A DNA stretch of 36,032 bases from Candidatus Cloacimonadota bacterium (lineage in GTDB: Bacteria > Muiribacteriota > UBA6191). Shown here in pieces: positions 5,883 through 31,467 of the stretch. Below the pieces are notes generated by a model. The model had not been told where the DNA came from. It did not search any database and saw only the letters and a list, made by a program, of their open reading frames with translations. Position numbers and translations under genes: made by a program. Numbering within the stretch: position 1 is the stretch's first letter; every line of letters starts with the position of its first letter. Location of the stretch: positions 1 through 36,032 of the forward strand of contig JACFNL010000030.1 in the NCBI GenBank assembly GCA_019454875.1, given 5' to 3'.

Positions 5883-7261
5883 TGATTTCCAGAGATTCTG
5901 TCCTTACAGTGGCCCGCGATCTGTACCATCAGATGCGGGCCACTGTTCTATCTGTCTCGGTCCAGAATCAGAAACATCCTCTTGTTTCCCAGTTGAGTTC
6001 CGGCCTGGTTGAGGATTGGGAGACGGATATTAAACTTAGGCTTCTGTGGCTTATGATTGCTGATTCCAGGATTCAGAAGGAAGAGGCTGAACTTTTGGCA
6101 TTTGTTCTGGATTCACAAAAGTCTCGTGAGGAATGGGAAGAGTTTGTATCCCGCTATAAAACCATGCTTCAGTCCATTTGTACCAGGGCCCCTGTCTGGA
6201 GCACAGCCATTGCTGGTCTGGATCAGGTCAACAAAACTGAAATCTTTCATACATTGTTGATTAATCTCTCTACTCTGTTTAAGGCTGTTGTTCTGGTGGA
6301 TGGAGAGAGGCAGGAATCTGAAATCAGAAGACAGGAAGAACTTTTAGCACCATTTCTTGAGGTATCTGAGAAACATGGGCTTTTTGTAAATCGGCTGGAC
6401 TTGCAAAACGATGATTCAAATCAGGAATTGGAAGCTCAGCCTCAAAGTAGCTATTTTTCTGTACTTTCCGAGCTAGACTCACTAATTGGCCTTGAATCTG
6501 TAAAAAAAGAAGCCCGCTCCTTGATTCATCTTGCCCGTCTCAATCAGTTAAGGCAGAAGAAAATTTTACCGGCCCTGCCACTAAATATGCACCTGGTGTT
6601 CACAGGCAATCCAGGTACAGGAAAAACAACGGTCGCGAGATTGATTTCGAGGGTGTACTCAGGTATTGGTCTGTTAAGCAAGGGTCACCTTGTTGAGGTG
6701 GATCGCAGTGCGATGGTAGCAGGCTATGTTGGACAGACGGCTTTGAAGGTTCATGAAGTTGTGAAATCGGCCCTTGGTGGCATACTTTTTTTAGACGAGG
6801 CCTATAATCTGGTTCAATCATCTGATGATTCCTTTGGCAGGGAGGCATTGGATACCTTACTGAAGCTAATGGAGGACTATCGTCGTGAGTTAGTGGTGAT
6901 TGTGGCCGGTTATAATGAGCCAATGGAGAATTTTTTGAGCTCTAACCCTGGCCTGCGTTCCCGTTTTAATCGCTATTTGCATTTTCCTGATTATTCCCTG
7001 GAGGAGCTTCTACAGATTCTTCTCTTGAATTTTCAAAGAGCATGTTTTGTTTTGGAGGAGGATACAGTTCTTAAGCTCAGAAATAAGGTGAACCAGATGT
7101 ATGAAAATCGTGAACCCCAGTTTGGAAATGGCAGGGAAATGCGCAATCTGTTTGAATCGATTGTGCAAAATCAGGCCAACCGTCTGATGTCGGCTGTAAA
7201 ATTACCGACATCCAGACAGTTAGTGACCATTCAGCCTGAGGATGTTTCCGAAACTAATTAG
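5882..7261 (+). CDS. TerB-like plus CbbX/SpoVK-type AAA+ ATPase
   Basis: This is a 459-residue, two-part protein. Residues about 20-165 are helical with two acidic motifs (IADSRIQKEEAELL; VLVDGERQESEIRRQEELL) reminiscent of TerB-like domains. Residues about 200-450 form a CbbX/SpoVK-type AAA+ module: GLESVKKE entry, Walker A GNPGTGKTT, pore-region GYVGQT, Walker B ILFLDEAYNL, a sensor/arginine segment (NPGLRSRFNR) and the C-terminal GNGREMRNLFE. The ATG overlaps the pspA stop (TAATG), which strongly suggests coupling with pspA. AAA+ proteins of this type remodel protein complexes, so I infer that it acts on PspA assemblies or another envelope-stress client. The 3' end overlaps the convergent next gene by four bases. 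Confidence 0.9.
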   Translation: MISRDSVLTVARDLYHQMRATVLSVSVQNQKHPLVSQLSSGLVEDWETDIKLRLLWLMIADSRIQKEEAELLAFVLDSQKSREEWEEFVSRYKTMLQSICTRAPVWSTAIAGLDQVNKTEIFHTLLINLSTLFKAVVLVDGERQESEIRRQEELLAPFLEVSEKHGLFVNRLDLQNDDSNQELEAQPQSSYFSVLSELDSLIGLESVKKEARSLIHLARLNQLRQKKILPALPLNMHLVFTGNPGTGKTTVARLISRVYSGIGLLSKGHLVEVDRSAMVAGYVGQTALKVHEVVKSALGGILFLDEAYNLVQSSDDSFGREALDTLLKLMEDYRRELVVIVAGYNEPMENFLSSNPGLRSRFNRYLHFPDYSLEELLQILLLNFQRACFVLEEDTVLKLRNKVNQMYENREPQFGNGREMRNLFESIVQNQANRLMSAVKLPTSRQLVTIQPEDVSETN

Positions 7262-7905
7262 CGTTCCCGGCTGATTTCAAGTTTTAAGGTAGTTCCATCA
7301 TCAGATTCCTGTAGTCCTGTGATGGTAATGGTACCTTTACCAGAAGCTTTGGAGACTGTTTCCAAAATCCTGTCCATGTCTTTTTGCATTTCGGTTGGCT
7401 GGAAGGTGAGCATACGGATCTGCTTTTGGAATTCATCAATCAGTTCCTTCATGTCTTTGATATCTTCCGGTCGCACATTTTTAACCCTAAGTCCAGACTG
7501 CTTTTCAAGTAACAAAAGATTCTGATAGGCACGGATTACAATACGGGCCGCTGGTTCTACTAGGGGAGTACTAGGGGAGTGAATGACCCTGGAATCATAG
7601 GATGAGGTAATAATGCCCTTAGCGGCCAGTCCTCGCATGATGGGGCGAAATCTTGATTTGGATGAGATTCTTTTAAATGGTTTGGAATCAAAATCAAAAC
7701 GGCGGGGCAGTACCTTTTTGGTCTCCAATGCCTTGATTTCTGCCGAAGGCTGAATTTTATGCGGCATATGGATAGTCAGGCTCAGAGATTCCTCGGCATA
7801 ATCCAGAGTGTTTGGCAGATTCAGGATCAGGTTGTTTTCCGGTTTGGTATTGTTTGCCATTGTTGCGTGGATAAATAGATATAAAAGCAATAAACTAGTT
7901 TTCAT
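7258..7905 (-). CDS. Exported protein of unknown function
   Basis: The 215-residue product has a signal peptide (MKTSLLLLYLFIHATMA) and a basic, mixed alpha/beta body with no motif I recognise. The C-terminal half is helical (IDEFQKQIRML, MQKDMDRILETVSKASG) and the last 25 residues look like a beta-hairpin ending in KLEISRER. Its start lies inside the 3' end of the upstream M16 peptidase gene (11-base overlap), so the two are very likely one operon. A role as a periplasmic partner or regulator of the peptidase is only positional inference. Confidence 0.75.
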   Translation of the reverse strand: MKTSLLLLYLFIHATMANNTKPENNLILNLPNTLDYAEESLSLTIHMPHKIQPSAEIKALETKKVLPRRFDFDSKPFKRISSKSRFRPIMRGLAAKGIITSSYDSRVIHSPSTPLVEPAARIVIRAYQNLLLLEKQSGLRVKNVRPEDIKDMKELIDEFQKQIRMLTFQPTEMQKDMDRILETVSKASGKGTITITGLQESDDGTTLKLEISRER

Positions 7906-9175
7906 TGAATAACCTCGTCATTCTGATTCTGTTTTCAAACTCGGATTCCGGCATAGGACCGACCTGAATCATGGTAGGGGGTTTTGAAAAAATGTGTTGG
8001 GCGACTCGTATGATATCGTCATTTTCTACGGCATTGACCATATCAATCAGTTCTTCTGCTGTAAAAATCTTCTGGAAGTAGAGATGCCCAACTGCAATAC
8101 GGTTCATACGAAAACTGGTTCGTTCCAGACCAAGCAACAAACTGCCTTTCAACTGGTTCTTTAATTGCAGAAGTTTATGCGCATCAATTCCGCTGGCTTT
8201 TAGGTGGTCCAAAGTTTCCCATACCTGTTCCAGAACCGGATTTGTGCTTGATTCATGATGAGCAGAATAGATTCCTATAGTTCCCGTATCCTGGTAAGCT
8301 CGCACATAGGAATAGATATTGTAGGCTAAGCCGAGCTGCTCCCTGATCTTTTGAAAAAGTATGGAGGACATGCCACCACCGAGCCAGCTTGATATCAGGT
8401 GCAGAATGTAGCGATCCTTGTGCACCATCGAATAGGCATGCCATCCCAGATTCAGGTGACATTGTTCCACTGGTTTTACCCGACATAAAATCCCATGTTT
8501 TTTTGTCTCTTTGCTTTGGTTCAGCTGGATGGATGAGTGAAAACCAGGGTCATGAGAGAAATAACGACTACCTAGTTCCTGTACTCTTGATGCCTTGATA
8601 TTGCCCACAACAGTCATAAACATCTGTGATGGCTGACACATGGCCCTGTGAAACTCCAAGGTCTGTTCACGGGTAAAACTGCGAACCTTAATTTTGTCGC
8701 CAATCACGGGATGTCCCAAGGCTCGACCATACATCTGTTTTACGATTAGGTCATGAACCAGTTCCTCAGGGCTGTCTTCGTAAGAATCAATTTCCTGAAA
8801 TATTACTTTTTTTTCCCGTTCCATCTCATCTGGCTCAAACTGGGAGCAGAAAATCAGATCGGAAAGGACATCAAAAATCAGTTCGTCATGTTCTGATATG
8901 GCCTTTGCGTAATAGCAGCAGTTTTCCCGGCTGGTGAAGGCGTTCATTTCACCACCAACAACCTCAAGGCTTTCGGCAATATCTAAAGGGCTGCGACGCT
9001 TGGTACCCTTAAAGAGCATATGCTCCAGAAAATGGGCCATTCCATGAAGCTCTCTTGATTCATGACGGGACCCGCGTCTGGTCCAGACAGCAACTAGTAC
9101 GGACTGGATATGAGAGATACTTTCGCAGATGATGGTGAGGCCGTTGGGGAGGTGAATTGTTTCGATGTTTTCCAC
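7895..9175 (-). CDS. M16 family zinc metallopeptidase (processing-protease type)
   Basis: This 426-residue protein matches the size of bacterial M16B peptidases (PqqL/MPP-beta-like). The zinc motif HxxEH is at H48-FL-E51-H52 (MAHFLEHMLFKGTKRRS), and the third ligand is in VIFQEIDSYEDSP (E128). The C-terminal half keeps the R/Y signature (SSILFQKIREQLGLAYNIYSYV). The active metal site is therefore intact. No signal peptide is evident, suggesting a cytoplasmic or periplasm-facing processing or peptide-degrading enzyme. It overlaps the downstream exported-protein gene and diverges from the DUF2225 gene with only about 30 bases between start codons. Confidence 0.93.
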   Translation of the reverse strand: MENIETIHLPNGLTIICESISHIQSVLVAVWTRRGSRHESRELHGMAHFLEHMLFKGTKRRSPLDIAESLEVVGGEMNAFTSRENCCYYAKAISEHDELIFDVLSDLIFCSQFEPDEMEREKKVIFQEIDSYEDSPEELVHDLIVKQMYGRALGHPVIGDKIKVRSFTREQTLEFHRAMCQPSQMFMTVVGNIKASRVQELGSRYFSHDPGFHSSIQLNQSKETKKHGILCRVKPVEQCHLNLGWHAYSMVHKDRYILHLISSWLGGGMSSILFQKIREQLGLAYNIYSYVRAYQDTGTIGIYSAHHESSTNPVLEQVWETLDHLKASGIDAHKLLQLKNQLKGSLLLGLERTSFRMNRIAVGHLYFQKIFTAEELIDMVNAVENDDIIRVAQHIFSKPPTMIQVGPMPESEFENRIRMTRLFNEN

Positions 9176-9205
9176 ACTTTCCCTATCGGAGTCTTGCCGG
9201 GTCCA

Positions 9206-9943
9206 ATGAACAGTGATACTCTAATTTCTATCATGAAGGAAAAGCCGATCATATGGACAAAGATGGAGAGTTGCCCTCTCTGCGAGACCAAGTTTGAGAC
9301 AGAAAATGTGTGGACAAACCGGGTGCGATTTTCAGATACCTACACGGATATGGGCAAAAAATACATTGATATCAACCCACTCTTTTATGAGATTTGGGTA
9401 TGCCCAGGCTGTCTGTATGCAGCATATCGCAAAGAAGGATTTTTAAATATCCAGGGAATTATCAAGTCGAACTTTAAAAAGGGCCTTGATATGCGCAAAA
9501 AAATTTCCCGCACCATTGACTGGAATGCTTCCCGTAGTTTTGAAATGGGTGTACTTTCCTTCAAGCTCGCGATTTTGTGCCTGCAGGAACGATCTGGTGT
9601 TTCAGCCGCCCGTTATGGAAGCTATTTTCTGAAACTGGCCTGGCTGTTTCGATTCAAAGATATGAAGGAAGAGGAACAGACTTACCTCAAACTGGCCATG
9701 GCCCGTTTTATGGAAGCTTATTCCAAGGAAACTGCCCCTGAGGTTGGTAGTATGGGTGAAACTGGTCTGGTGTACACCATAGGTGAACTAGCCCGCAGGA
9801 CAGGAGATACTAAAACTGCCTGTGAATACTATATGAAAGTCATTACCAACAAGGAAATGCAGGGGGATCCCCAGTACATCCGTTTATCCCGCGACATGCT
9901 CTCATTTGCCAAAGAGGGTTCACCAGTCGAATTTATTAAATAA
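9206..9943 (+). CDS. DUF2225 family zinc-ribbon/TPR-like protein
   Basis: Two CxxC pairs (SCPLCETKF and VCPGCLYAAY) flank the conserved block DINPLFYEIWVCPGC, which is characteristic of DUF2225. The cysteines probably bind a zinc ion. The C-terminal two thirds are helical and TPR-like (AYSKETAPEVGSMGETGLVY..IGELARRTGDTKTACEYYMKVI). The function of the family is unknown. The open frame extends upstream to 9110, but that would overlap the divergent M16 gene. I chose ATG 9206; ATG 9233 is also possible, and neither has a good ribosome-binding site. The gene is a single unit that ends just before a terminator. Confidence 0.88.
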   Translation: MNSDTLISIMKEKPIIWTKMESCPLCETKFETENVWTNRVRFSDTYTDMGKKYIDINPLFYEIWVCPGCLYAAYRKEGFLNIQGIIKSNFKKGLDMRKKISRTIDWNASRSFEMGVLSFKLAILCLQERSGVSAARYGSYFLKLAWLFRFKDMKEEEQTYLKLAMARFMEAYSKETAPEVGSMGETGLVYTIGELARRTGDTKTACEYYMKVITNKEMQGDPQYIRLSRDMLSFAKEGSPVEFIK

Positions 9944-9947
9944 AAAA

Positions 9948-9981
9948 AAGCATCTCAGACTTATTAAAATCTGAGACGCTT
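9948..9981 (-). terminator. Rho-independent terminator for the Tyr-rich/GMP-rich unit
   Basis: Read on the - strand, the stem GCGTCTCAGA / TCTGAGATGC (one G-U pair) closes an AT-rich loop and is followed by eight T residues. On the + strand the same hairpin has an A-C mismatch and no T run, so it mainly serves the - strand genes upstream (10003-12356). Confidence 0.8.
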
Positions 9982-10002
9982 CCGTTGGAGCATCTAGTTG
10001 AT

Positions 10003-10770
10003 CTAGTACTTCAGCCAGTCTACAAAAGCCGCAGCGGCTGCCAGTCCAAATACCCCGGTTGCCAGAAGATTTGTGGTCCGGTTGTAACGGGGATAATAGT
10101 AGTTCTGGTATGAATAGTAGTTATAATTGTAGGTATTGTAGTTGTAATACCCGTTTGAGTAGGTTGGAGTATAATAGTAGGGGTTCTGGTAGTAAGGATA
10201 ACTGACAGGAGCCCTGTAATTATAATTGTAGAAGTAGTTGTAGCCATAGTAGTTGTAATAACTGCCATAGGCAGGGCGCAGATATGGGGCTGATGGAGCA
10301 CCATTTTTGGTGGCATCACTAACAACATCTTCATACTGCTTTTCAGCTTCACTGCGGAAAGTGCTATCAAGTTCCAAAGTTTTTACCAGAGATGATTTTA
10401 AGGTTTCCACATCACTGGATTGAATCTGGCTGTAAATCTCGCGAGCCATTTCTTTATGTTTGGCCTGCATGGCTTTTAGAATCTTTCCTCGAACCAGGGA
10501 AGGATCCACCGGAGCACCAGGGTTTCCGATGGAATCTGCGGGGGCCATTTGACCGTAATGTTCCATAACCTTCTGGTCATCCCAGGAGTTTACAGTTGAA
10601 ACCTTCTGTTCCTGACTCAAACGGATATCTTCCAGAATCTGATCAAAAACCTGCTTTTTTAAAGCGGATTCTTCCACCTGCTGATTTAACATCAGCTTGT
10701 ATTTGTTCAGAGGACCATTGTCCGCAAAGCTAGTTGCTGCGGCCAGACAAAAAATTGCTGCTCGTATCAT
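10003..10770 (-). CDS. Secreted tyrosine-rich low-complexity protein
   Basis: This 255-residue protein has a signal peptide (MIRAAIFCLAAATSFA) and a charged helical region (about 20-160). Next comes an extreme Tyr/Asn/Pro-rich segment (163-230) in which 30 of 68 residues are tyrosine (YNYYGYNYFYNYNY, NYYYPRYN). The C-terminus is a hydrophobic helix (LLATGVFGLAAAAAFVDWL). GGAG lies six bases before the ATG. It starts 15 bases after the stop of the Gly/Met/Pro-rich gene and shares the downstream terminator, so the two form one unit. Tyr-rich segments can form aromatic, crosslinkable or adhesive material; that role is inference. I recognise no family. Confidence 0.82.
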   Translation of the reverse strand: MIRAAIFCLAAATSFADNGPLNKYKLMLNQQVEESALKKQVFDQILEDIRLSQEQKVSTVNSWDDQKVMEHYGQMAPADSIGNPGAPVDPSLVRGKILKAMQAKHKEMAREIYSQIQSSDVETLKSSLVKTLELDSTFRSEAEKQYEDVVSDATKNGAPSAPYLRPAYGSYYNYYGYNYFYNYNYRAPVSYPYYQNPYYYTPTYSNGYYNYNTYNYNYYSYQNYYYPRYNRTTNLLATGVFGLAAAAAFVDWLKY

Positions 10771-10784
10771 GAAAATCTCCTTGA

Positions 10785-12356
10785 TTACAGAGTTGTGCTC
10801 AGATAGGTATTGTCATTCTGGGTTATTACAGGAATCATGCCCGATGTTCCAGAGCTGCTAGTAGGAGCCATGGGTGCCCCAATGGGGGCAACGGAGGTTG
10901 AACCAGCAGGAGCATAAGGCTGTATGGGAGTATACCCATAATTTGGTTGCCCCATAGGTGGATTGGCCACAGGAGGCTGTTGTCCACAAAGAGGTGGGCA
11001 GGTCTGGGTCTGACCAAACTGGCCTTGACCATAGGGGTCAGCCCCTGGATATCCGCCGGGCATTGGTTGCATCGGTGGATACATAGGATTAGCTCCAGGA
11101 TAACCACCAGGCATGGGCTGAGTGTAATCAGGCCCAGGCATAGGACCCATGCCAGGATAAGAACCACCGGGCATTGTTCCAGGATAAACTCCTGGATAAT
11201 AGGGTTGCTGCATAGGAGGCATTCCGGGCATCATCCCAGGCATCATGCCTGGCATCATCCCAGGATACATTCCGGGGTACATTCCTGGATTCATGCCTGG
11301 CATTCCGCCGCCCATGATATAACCACCGCCGTAGTCCATACCCATTCCATAACCCATTCCACCGCCGTAACCCATGCCCATTCCGCCACCGTAGCCGTAG
11401 CCGGAAGACCATTCATCATCATCGTCTTTTTTGTCCTTTTTAAACATTTCCTTGAGCATGTATGCGCCCATGCCAATTTTGGCACCAAACATTACTGGTT
11501 CCATGATGGATTGCAGGATATCTGTTTTTCCTTTGGCCTTGGCTTCAACCTGATTTTCTCCATAACCGATATTGTCAGGATGGGGAGGGTTTCTTTCCCA
11601 GTCCGAATCCGGATTTCCTGCGCCACCAGGACGAGCAGGTCCTCCGGCCACAGTGTCAAACATGCCTCCGCCCAATACATCCATTGGTGTTTCAGCTTCC
11701 AGCTTGGTAGCCGGATCAATCAGACCAATATTAACGGCCCGGTCATTGATACCACCTTCTGTGATTTTGTAGCCACTCTGCAGTTTAAATCCTTTAAGAG
11801 TAAATACCCTTTCCTGCAAAGTTCTTTGTTCCCCGCCGATTTTTCCCTGGGAATTGTAGTAACACAAAAATGTGGCCCGTCCGTCTTTGGCCTCATACAC
11901 CCTGTAAATCAAAAATACCTGACGGCTTTGAAGAAACATGGCAATTACTGGTTTGCCACCATCAGCACCCATACCACCACCAGGAAGGAAGGTGACAATT
12001 CTTTGAAACATATTGTATTTGTTACTGTATTCAGTCACGCCTCTTTCACGGTAAAGGGTGACCCCATCTTTGGATCTCTGCATAAAAAGATTGTGATCGG
12101 AGCTTGGGTTGAACCCACAATCATGAGTACGGTGGAGTACTTTACCAAGATAGGGATTTGCTGTATCCGCACTGCCGTCCATTTTAGACAGGGAGCTATC
12201 GTACTCAGAAATTCTGCGTTCCGTGGATGTCATTCCACCTAGTTCAGAACCTAGATGCAACCTGTCCATCAGATTGTCAGCACTTACCGTATTGCCCATC
12301 AGGAGCATGGAAACTCCCAGGGTTGGCATCAATTTCAGTATCTTGCATGCACTCAT
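10785..12356 (-). CDS. Secreted Gly/Met/Pro/Tyr-rich low-complexity protein
   Basis: This 523-residue protein has a signal peptide (about 1-26, ending NTVSA) and an ordered N-terminal region to about 270 with two beta-rich stretches (MFQRIVTFLPGGG; VIAMFLQSRQVFLIYRVY). A short hydrophobic helix (about 287-301) is followed by KDKKDDDDEW. A long disordered tail (317-480) is built from GYGGGMGMGYGGGMGYG and repeated PGM(M/Y/N) units. A CPPLC pair lies near 453-457. The start has GGAGG seven bases upstream. The gene is first of a two-gene unit with the Tyr-rich protein. A structural or matrix role is likely, but I recognise no family. The DNA repeats could make length variation easy. Confidence 0.82.
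   Translation of the reverse strand: MSACKILKLMPTLGVSMLLMGNTVSADNLMDRLHLGSELGGMTSTERRISEYDSSLSKMDGSADTANPYLGKVLHRTHDCGFNPSSDHNLFMQRSKDGVTLYRERGVTEYSNKYNMFQRIVTFLPGGGMGADGGKPVIAMFLQSRQVFLIYRVYEAKDGRATFLCYYNSQGKIGGEQRTLQERVFTLKGFKLQSGYKITEGGINDRAVNIGLIDPATKLEAETPMDVLGGGMFDTVAGGPARPGGAGNPDSDWERNPPHPDNIGYGENQVEAKAKGKTDILQSIMEPVMFGAKIGMGAYMLKEMFKKDKKDDDDEWSSGYGYGGGMGMGYGGGMGYGMGMDYGGGYIMGGGMPGMNPGMYPGMYPGMMPGMMPGMMPGMPPMQQPYYPGVYPGTMPGGSYPGMGPMPGPDYTQPMPGGYPGANPMYPPMQPMPGGYPGADPYGQGQFGQTQTCPPLCGQQPPVANPPMGQPNYGYTPIQPYAPAGSTSVAPIGAPMAPTSSSGTSGMIPVITQNDNTYLSTTL
11211..11303 (-). repeat. Tandem Pro-Gly-Met coding repeat
   Basis: On the - strand this stretch encodes successive PGM-type units (MPGMNPGMYPGMY, PGMMPGMMPGMMPGM). 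The units are 9-12 bases long and partly identical at DNA level (catcatcccaggcatcatgc). Such an array is prone to slippage, and all whole-unit changes would stay in frame. Confidence 0.75.
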
Positions 12357-30196: not shown

Positions 30197-31399
30197 TCAG
30201 TTGCCAGATTGAATGCCAAGTCTTTGGACCAGTTGGGGAAACTTTTTTAATACAAGCTGGTGGCGAACCTCATCAGGGTTTTGTCCTTGAAGGCTTGTTC
30301 CGTGTAAGGGGCTCCCACCGGTATACATAGTTCCAAAAGGATCACCAAACTGATTAAGTCCCTGCTGGGCCAAAAATTTATCAATCTCAAATTTCTGGGC
30401 ATTGGATATACGGTATTGGGTTATGGCAACTCCGCTTTGGCCCCCAGTAGCCTGAGTTGCCTGCTGAAGAAAGGAGCCGTTGCTGGCATAAAGAAAAACT
30501 CTTTCCTGCCCAATTCCCTGACCGGTAACTCCTGCCACAGTCTTAACCACAATCTGTAACTGTCCATTCTCTAAAGTAGTCTTGGATACAATTTCCACCT
30601 GAACCTGATTGCCCATCAGTGGGTTTTGCTGAATTTCATGGCGAAATCTCTGTACTGCATCGGTAGCAGCGTTGTTTAAGGCCTGCTGCTGAAAATTGAC
30701 CACATTTAAAGGTCTTCCCTGCTGGTAACCGCCCCCATAAGGAGGATAACTCATGCCATAGGCACCGTATCCCTGTTGCATGTGGGGATAACCGGCCTGA
30801 TAACCCATCCCCATCATGGGCCCACCCATAAATGGCTGCTGGCCAAAAGGTGGCTGCATCCAGCCATAACCGTTTTGCATGGGCTGCTGATAAAACTGGC
30901 TTCCCTGATTGGGCTGTGGATTGTAGGTGGTTTCCCATGGATTGGCCGAGGCATTGCGGGTAGGTTGTCCACCAACGGTAGGAACCTGATTGATATAAGC
31001 CTGTGGATGATTGATAGACATGACAGGCTGGCCTTCAAGAACATAGGTGTCTGTGCCATAACCTCTTTGATAGGGTGAATCAAGGTAAGGTGAGTTATTG
31101 GTGGGATTCAGAACTGGTCCACGATAAAAATAGGTATCCCTGTAGATATTAGAATTGTTTTTGTCGGCACCAGCAACTGTGTTTCCGGGGGCCTGAGATG
31201 CGGCAGACCCACTGAGCTGCGAGGTCAGCCGGTTGATTTCTTCACGGATGCGGTTTCGTTCAGCTTCAGAAGTTGCCTGAGACAGTGCCTGGGTTTTAAC
31301 CATAATCTCTCGTTCAATGTTGGCTCGATTGGTGGCAAACAGAGAGGAAGTAATTCCTAATCCCAGACAAAATGCAATTCCAGTTAAGTTGTGTTTCAT
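30197..31399 (-). CDS. Secreted Gln/Pro/Gly/Tyr/Met-rich protein
   Basis: The product is about 400 residues from ATG 31399, which has GAGG six bases upstream; the frame extends to 31444 without support. A signal peptide (about 1-22) precedes a helical segment (IEREIMVKTQALSQ, ERNRIREEINRLTSQ). A disordered Gln/Pro/Gly/Tyr-rich tract follows (about 150-232, with QQPFMGGPMMGMGYQ, YGAYGMSYPPYGGGYQQG). The C-terminal domain is ordered (about 250-340: QVQVEIVSKTTLENGQLQIVVKTVAG). The style of the low-complexity tract resembles the GMP-rich protein at 10785-12356. It is divergent from a large lipoprotein gene. Function is unknown; a surface or matrix role is inference. Confidence 0.8.
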   Translation of the reverse strand: MKHNLTGIAFCLGLGITSSLFATNRANIEREIMVKTQALSQATSEAERNRIREEINRLTSQLSGSAASQAPGNTVAGADKNNSNIYRDTYFYRGPVLNPTNNSPYLDSPYQRGYGTDTYVLEGQPVMSINHPQAYINQVPTVGGQPTRNASANPWETTYNPQPNQGSQFYQQPMQNGYGWMQPPFGQQPFMGGPMMGMGYQAGYPHMQQGYGAYGMSYPPYGGGYQQGRPLNVVNFQQQALNNAATDAVQRFRHEIQQNPLMGNQVQVEIVSKTTLENGQLQIVVKTVAGVTGQGIGQERVFLYASNGSFLQQATQATGGQSGVAITQYRISNAQKFEIDKFLAQQGLNQFGDPFGTMYTGGSPLHGTSLQGQNPDEVRHQLVLKKFPQLVQRLGIQSGN

Positions 31400-31467
31400 C
31401 AGAAGCCTCACAAGTTCGCAACGAGTAGCGTAAACAGTTCCCACTCAAAATACGATAGTCAGGATGA

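Follow-up and report, generated by a model that had tools for sequence, protein, structure and literature searches.

A conserved pair of apparently exported tyrosine-rich and glycine/methionine/proline-rich proteins found so far in a single bacterial family

In a stretch of 36,032 nucleotides analysed here (the window; contig JACFNL010000030.1 of assembly GCA_019454875.1, labelled Candidatus Cloacimonadota bacterium), we identified two adjacent genes on the minus strand, denoted G and Y, with G upstream of Y, which encode proteins carrying tails of extreme composition. The two genes are linked and strongly constrained, and the unusual composition of their tails is conserved in four genomes that represent two genera of one family. 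As the best explanation, which we regard as possible rather than probable, we propose that G and Y are co-produced, exported envelope proteins that would form a two-component sticker-and-spacer material.

Organization and conservation of the G-Y gene pair

Gene G (10785..12356, minus strand) encodes 523 amino acids (aa) comprising a signal peptide, a folded N-terminal domain, a conserved helix and a Gly/Pro/Met/Tyr tail, and gene Y (10003..10770, minus strand) encodes 255 aa with a short signal peptide, a helical domain, a Tyr-rich stretch and a C-terminal hydrophobic helix. Both open reading frames (ORFs) lie where a preliminary description of this DNA had placed them. The close spacing it reported holds, although the gap (10771..10784, minus strand), which contains a Shine-Dalgarno-like AAGGAG ahead of Y, is 14 rather than 15 bases long. 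The common terminator it proposed was recovered as a 17-pair hairpin followed by a T run (9946..9983, minus strand), which closes the G-Y unit and, read from 9983 to 9946, folds at -22.8 kcal/mol (z -6.5). Hairpin terminators are present at the same place 3' of Y in all four genomes of the family, with stems that are unrelated between the two genera. In the sister genus, terminator-like hairpins are also found between MqnC and G, so that G-Y is probably a separate unit there.

The pair is present in each of the four genomes, adjacent and with order and surroundings kept: CHASE2-cyclase, MqnC, G, Y, DUF2225 (convergent), M16 peptidase, a small exported protein, PspA and a PKD-type surface protein. 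Purifying selection on both genes is strong and extends to the tails. Compared with its congener, the window gives dN/dS values of 0.026 for G and 0.042 for Y, and the comparison inside the sister genus gives 0.13 for either gene, all these ratios being approximate because synonymous sites are near saturation. Given the conserved frames, co-occurrence, synteny and very low dN/dS, G and Y are real genes; co-occurrence in relatives and conserved reading frames, on which the preliminary description had made its proposal depend, are both found. Spurious or antisense ORFs are ruled out by dN/dS and synteny, and a 431-aa plus-strand ORF (10947-12242) was rejected as a gene, being the mirror image of the repetitive G gene.

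Several features of the neighborhood were recorded in passing. The DUF2225 gene (window 9110-9943, plus strand) is represented by two diverged copies per genome in the family, and in each of the four genomes the small conserved exported protein (window 7258-7905, minus strand), which has no Pfam match, adjoins the M16 peptidase. In the congener, the sole local break in gene order is a trypsin-like protease gene (PF13365; L011:9128-9886, minus strand) inserted between DUF2225 and Y. In the sister genus, an exported phospholipase D-like protein is encoded between DUF2225 and the M16 peptidase (L012:12293-14110 and L013:13282-15117, both plus strand; PLDc_2 match tested in L012), and this gene is absent from the window.

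Domain architecture of G and Y

All features described in this section are on the minus strand. The signal peptides previously assigned to both proteins are supported by cleavage-like sites, judged by eye: between VSA and DN in G (residues 1-26, 12279..12356; SPase I-like, with a hydrophobic peak of 1.37 on the Kyte-Doolittle (KD) scale) and between SFA and DN in Y. We infer that both proteins are exported.

The N-terminal domain of G (residues 27-220, 11697..12278) is its most constrained segment, with a dN/dS of 0.009 against the congener. Structure prediction, which the preliminary description had suggested for this part, indicates helices followed by a beta meander, at low confidence (pLDDT 34), and gave no reliable fold match; several NTF2-like and VirB8 matches (E at least 0.019, TM about 0.15, from the query model with pLDDT 34) are a lead only. 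The domain is followed by a conserved helix (residues 279-310, 11427..11522), in which SIMEPVMFGAKIGMGAYMLK is identical in all four genomes, and by a charged linker with a Lys-rich stretch immediately C-terminal of the helix. The hydrophobic helix before a linker reported earlier stands in its arrangement, although its hydrophobicity is only moderate (KD 1.01, with an internal Lys), so that it can be considered at most a putative transmembrane segment. Beyond the helix and linker lies the low-complexity tail (residues 319-523, 10788..11402), 205 residues with 10% Tyr and not a single Lys or Arg. The PGM tandem repeats noted before are real: G contains eight copies of PGM, of which seven recur with a strict period of 4 residues. 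Conservation along G is highest in the N-terminal domain and the SIMEPVMFGAKIGMGAYMLK helix, whereas the tail is heavily changed between genera.

Protein Y begins, after its signal peptide, with a helical domain (residues 17-158, 10297..10722) predicted to consist of four to five helices, with pLDDT of about 70-90 across much of it. The Tyr-rich stretch (residues 163-230, 10081..10284) contains 30 Tyr among 68 residues, exactly as originally counted, and no Lys, Asp or Glu. The C-terminal hydrophobic helix also noted at that time (residues 235-253, 10012..10068) is conserved, with a mean KD value of 1.79 over 19 residues. Y ends in DWLKY, DWLFD or DWLFE and is not basic there. Among the four Y sequences, PEP-CTERM/exosortase features were sought, and neither a PEP motif nor a basic cluster after the helix was found.

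Composition of the tails across the two genera

Over its 205-226 residues, the G tail lacks Lys and Arg in all four genomes and contains 23-28% Gly and 10-13% Tyr. Between genera, it tolerates indels and heavy substitution: Met residues number 28 and 27 in the two genomes of the window's genus versus 10 and 13 in the sister genus, where the repeat motif is largely lost. Mostly Asn, Ser and Gly have taken the place of the lost Met, and the Tyr and Gly content is maintained. The Tyr-rich stretch of Y likewise consists of 35-41% Tyr in all four genomes, with 4-7 Arg and no Lys, Asp or Glu; 19 Tyr columns are invariant across the four, and 21 of the 30 Tyr positions agree across genera, compared to 11 expected from shuffling. 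With these tails, Y is net positive and G slightly negative. In the sister genus, aromatic residues are spaced more evenly than in shuffled sequences (P 0.02-0.03 for Y and at most 0.0005 for G, with the four sequences being related), whereas in the window's genus only a weaker trend towards evenness is seen; the even Tyr spacing in G is partly due to its tandem repeats.

The drift of the tail sequence and its Met, while the physical character stays, points to composition and aromatic content as the target of selection and speaks against metal binding by Met. There is good evidence that the tails have been selected for composition rather than for exact sequence.

A scan of the 3.8 Mb genome found no second place with the TAYAAYTAYTAYNNNTAY or PGMxPGM codon pattern. 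A general habit of the proteome was rejected on the basis of 519 kb, or about 14% of the genome, made up of the 36 kb window and 40 stretches with 414 ORFs in all: both tails are clear outliers there, with a Tyr density per 60 residues of 0.47 in Y versus 0.17 in the next-highest ORF. The window encodes a third apparently exported protein (30197-31444, minus strand) with a low-complexity middle rich in Gln, Gly, Met, Pro and Tyr and a likely folded C-terminal part; it has no Pfam or NCBIfam match, and no homologue was seen on the two sister-genus contigs (235 kb and 66 kb) that carry the pair.

Distribution and homology searches

The closest named record is bacterium UBP17_UBA6191, and UBP17 is reported to rank among the phyla richest in uncharacterized gene families, with a very high count of novel families for each genome (PMC10849945). 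The other 36 genomes of the phylum that were searched, all from outside the family, yielded nothing convincing, and profiles of G and Y produced no convincing match against 382 relatives. Marginal profile matches in other genomes were dismissed as chance: those in G253, G050 and G237 contain internal stops, and that in G024 lies in a Lys/Glu-rich ORF of 134 aa, cut by the contig end, without a Tyr-rich part; an alphaproteobacterial match (L010) aligns to the PGM repeat alone. At the curated cut-offs of Pfam and NCBIfam, G belongs to no family and Y yields sub-threshold noise only (E 0.12 and above). Searches of PDB chains with sequence profiles returned no match for G and one chance match for Y (E 1.9), and fold searches with the models, of which that of Y is fair only in its helical part, gave no reliable match. 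Phage origin was discarded, with no relative of either protein among viral contigs. Taken together, the G-Y pair is conserved, lineage-restricted and so far found in one family only, always together there, and, on present sequence comparisons, without relatives of known function. At the level of sequence families, these searches support the earlier view that the pair is undescribed.

A putative two-component material and its alternatives

Under the sticker-and-spacer reading, each protein would combine a folded part, the N-terminal domain of G or the helical bundle of Y, with a conserved hydrophobic helix, a possible means of anchoring or oligomerization. The tails would be disordered and nearly uncharged, with Tyr as the sticker and Gly, Pro, Asn and Ser as spacers; Y would contribute a dense Tyr tail with Arg, and G a long tail with sparse Tyr and without Lys or Arg. 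Such tails might associate with themselves and with each other via Tyr-Tyr and Tyr-Arg contacts and thereby give the envelope a cohesive layer or an adhesive. In reasoning from composition to self-association, we draw on work on prion-like domains, in which Tyr and Arg act as stickers (PMC9748015, PMC12677899, PMC11163273).

The obligate pairing, synteny, constraint on the tails, kept composition, retained Tyr positions, even aromatic spacing in the sister genus and the outlier status of the tails all support the material reading, and the weak evenness of spacing in the window's genus, the share of the repeats in the spacing of G, the relatedness of the four sequences and the poor structure models speak against it. 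The conserved composition also fits the surface or matrix material suggested in the preliminary description and makes it plausible; self-association, location at the envelope and a role in such a material are what we infer for G and Y. The more ambitious proposition, namely, a previously undescribed two-protein envelope biomaterial, confined to one candidate-phylum family, in which Tyr/Arg-rich tails and Lys/Arg-free Gly/Pro/Tyr tails would come together outside the cytoplasm to build a cohesive matrix or an adhesive, we consider rather unlikely. If the tails do co-assemble, UBP17 would have supplied a bacterial structural material of a new type; if they do not, the pair is still removed from the list of spurious ORFs.

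Among the alternatives, the tails could be passive flexible tethers that give reach, while function would reside in the folded G domain and the Y helical bundle, which would bind each other or another envelope component. The dN/dS of 0.009 that the G domain shows between congeners, along with the indels and heavy substitution in the G tail between genera, is consistent with this possibility, which we nevertheless find doubtful: it leaves unexplained the 35-41% Tyr and the 19 invariant Tyr columns of Y, as well as the lack of Lys and Arg throughout the G tail in all four genomes.

The main doubt about the sticker-and-spacer material concerns topology, the G helix being weak as a transmembrane segment and followed by Lys. 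If this helix spans the inner membrane, the Lys-rich side behind it would, by the positive-inside logic, make the G tail cytoplasmic. G would then expose its folded domain outside, with Y anchored by its C-terminal helix, in a membrane assembly scaffolded by tails on two sides. The conserved helices of both proteins and the Lys-rich stretch right behind that of G favor such an arrangement, but the KD of 1.01 and the internal Lys of the G helix, together with the non-basic end of Y, make the topology ambiguous, and we judge the two-sided scaffold unlikely.

It is also quite improbable, in our assessment, that G and Y are precursors from which a coat is built by oxidative (dityrosine) cross-linking, in the manner of Tyr-rich proteins of cuticles, oocyst walls or spore coats. 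The very high Tyr content beside flexible repeats would suit this role, and each of the two genomes of the window's genus encodes one multicopper oxidase, but this enzyme was not found in the second genus, and no cross-linking enzyme was recognized among the neighboring genes tested. None of the four genomes has a tyrosinase or animal-type peroxidase (An_peroxidase) match, an absence that weighs little because in the control genomes the controls for these two enzymes, out of three controls, were silent too; with the same proviso, no conserved candidate for a cross-linking enzyme emerged across the four genomes. Covalent cross-linking of the tails is possible, and the earlier suggestion of a possibly crosslinkable material gained no positive support. 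Finally, binding of copper or another soft metal by the G tail, to which its 28 Met and MPGM/MMPGM motifs might point, is highly improbable, given that neither Met (10-13 in the sister genus) nor the motifs are conserved between genera while Tyr and Gly are retained, and that no copper gene is seen among the annotated neighbors.

Comparison with known systems

CotC and GerQ of Bacillus are Tyr-rich spore-coat proteins; if the material reading is correct, they have in common with G and Y that they are small, rich in Tyr and serve as structural components of an outer layer. In contrast to these, G and Y have apparent signal peptides and hydrophobic helices, and come from an uncultured bacterium with no sporulation evidence seen here. 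Elastin, with its PGxx repeats, and resilin, with its Tyr/Gly/Pro repeats, share with G and Y a flexible chain without charge that combines Tyr with PG turns in repeats; unlike in these proteins, the tandem part of G is short (7 PGM at period 4) and eroded in the sister genus, and there is no sequence homology.

Prion-like sticker-and-spacer domains of the FUS and hnRNPA1 type resemble the G and Y tails in their low charge, abundance of Tyr, Gly/Ser/Asn/Gln/Pro spacers and some Arg. This composition is found in the tails in all four genomes, whereas even aromatic spacing is significant in the sister genus only. Unlike the FUS and hnRNPA1 domains, to which they bear no sequence relation, the G and Y tails are bacterial and are borne on unrelated folded domains with hydrophobic helices. 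The pair offers a compact example of obligately paired low-complexity proteins that are apparently exported rather than cytoplasmic.
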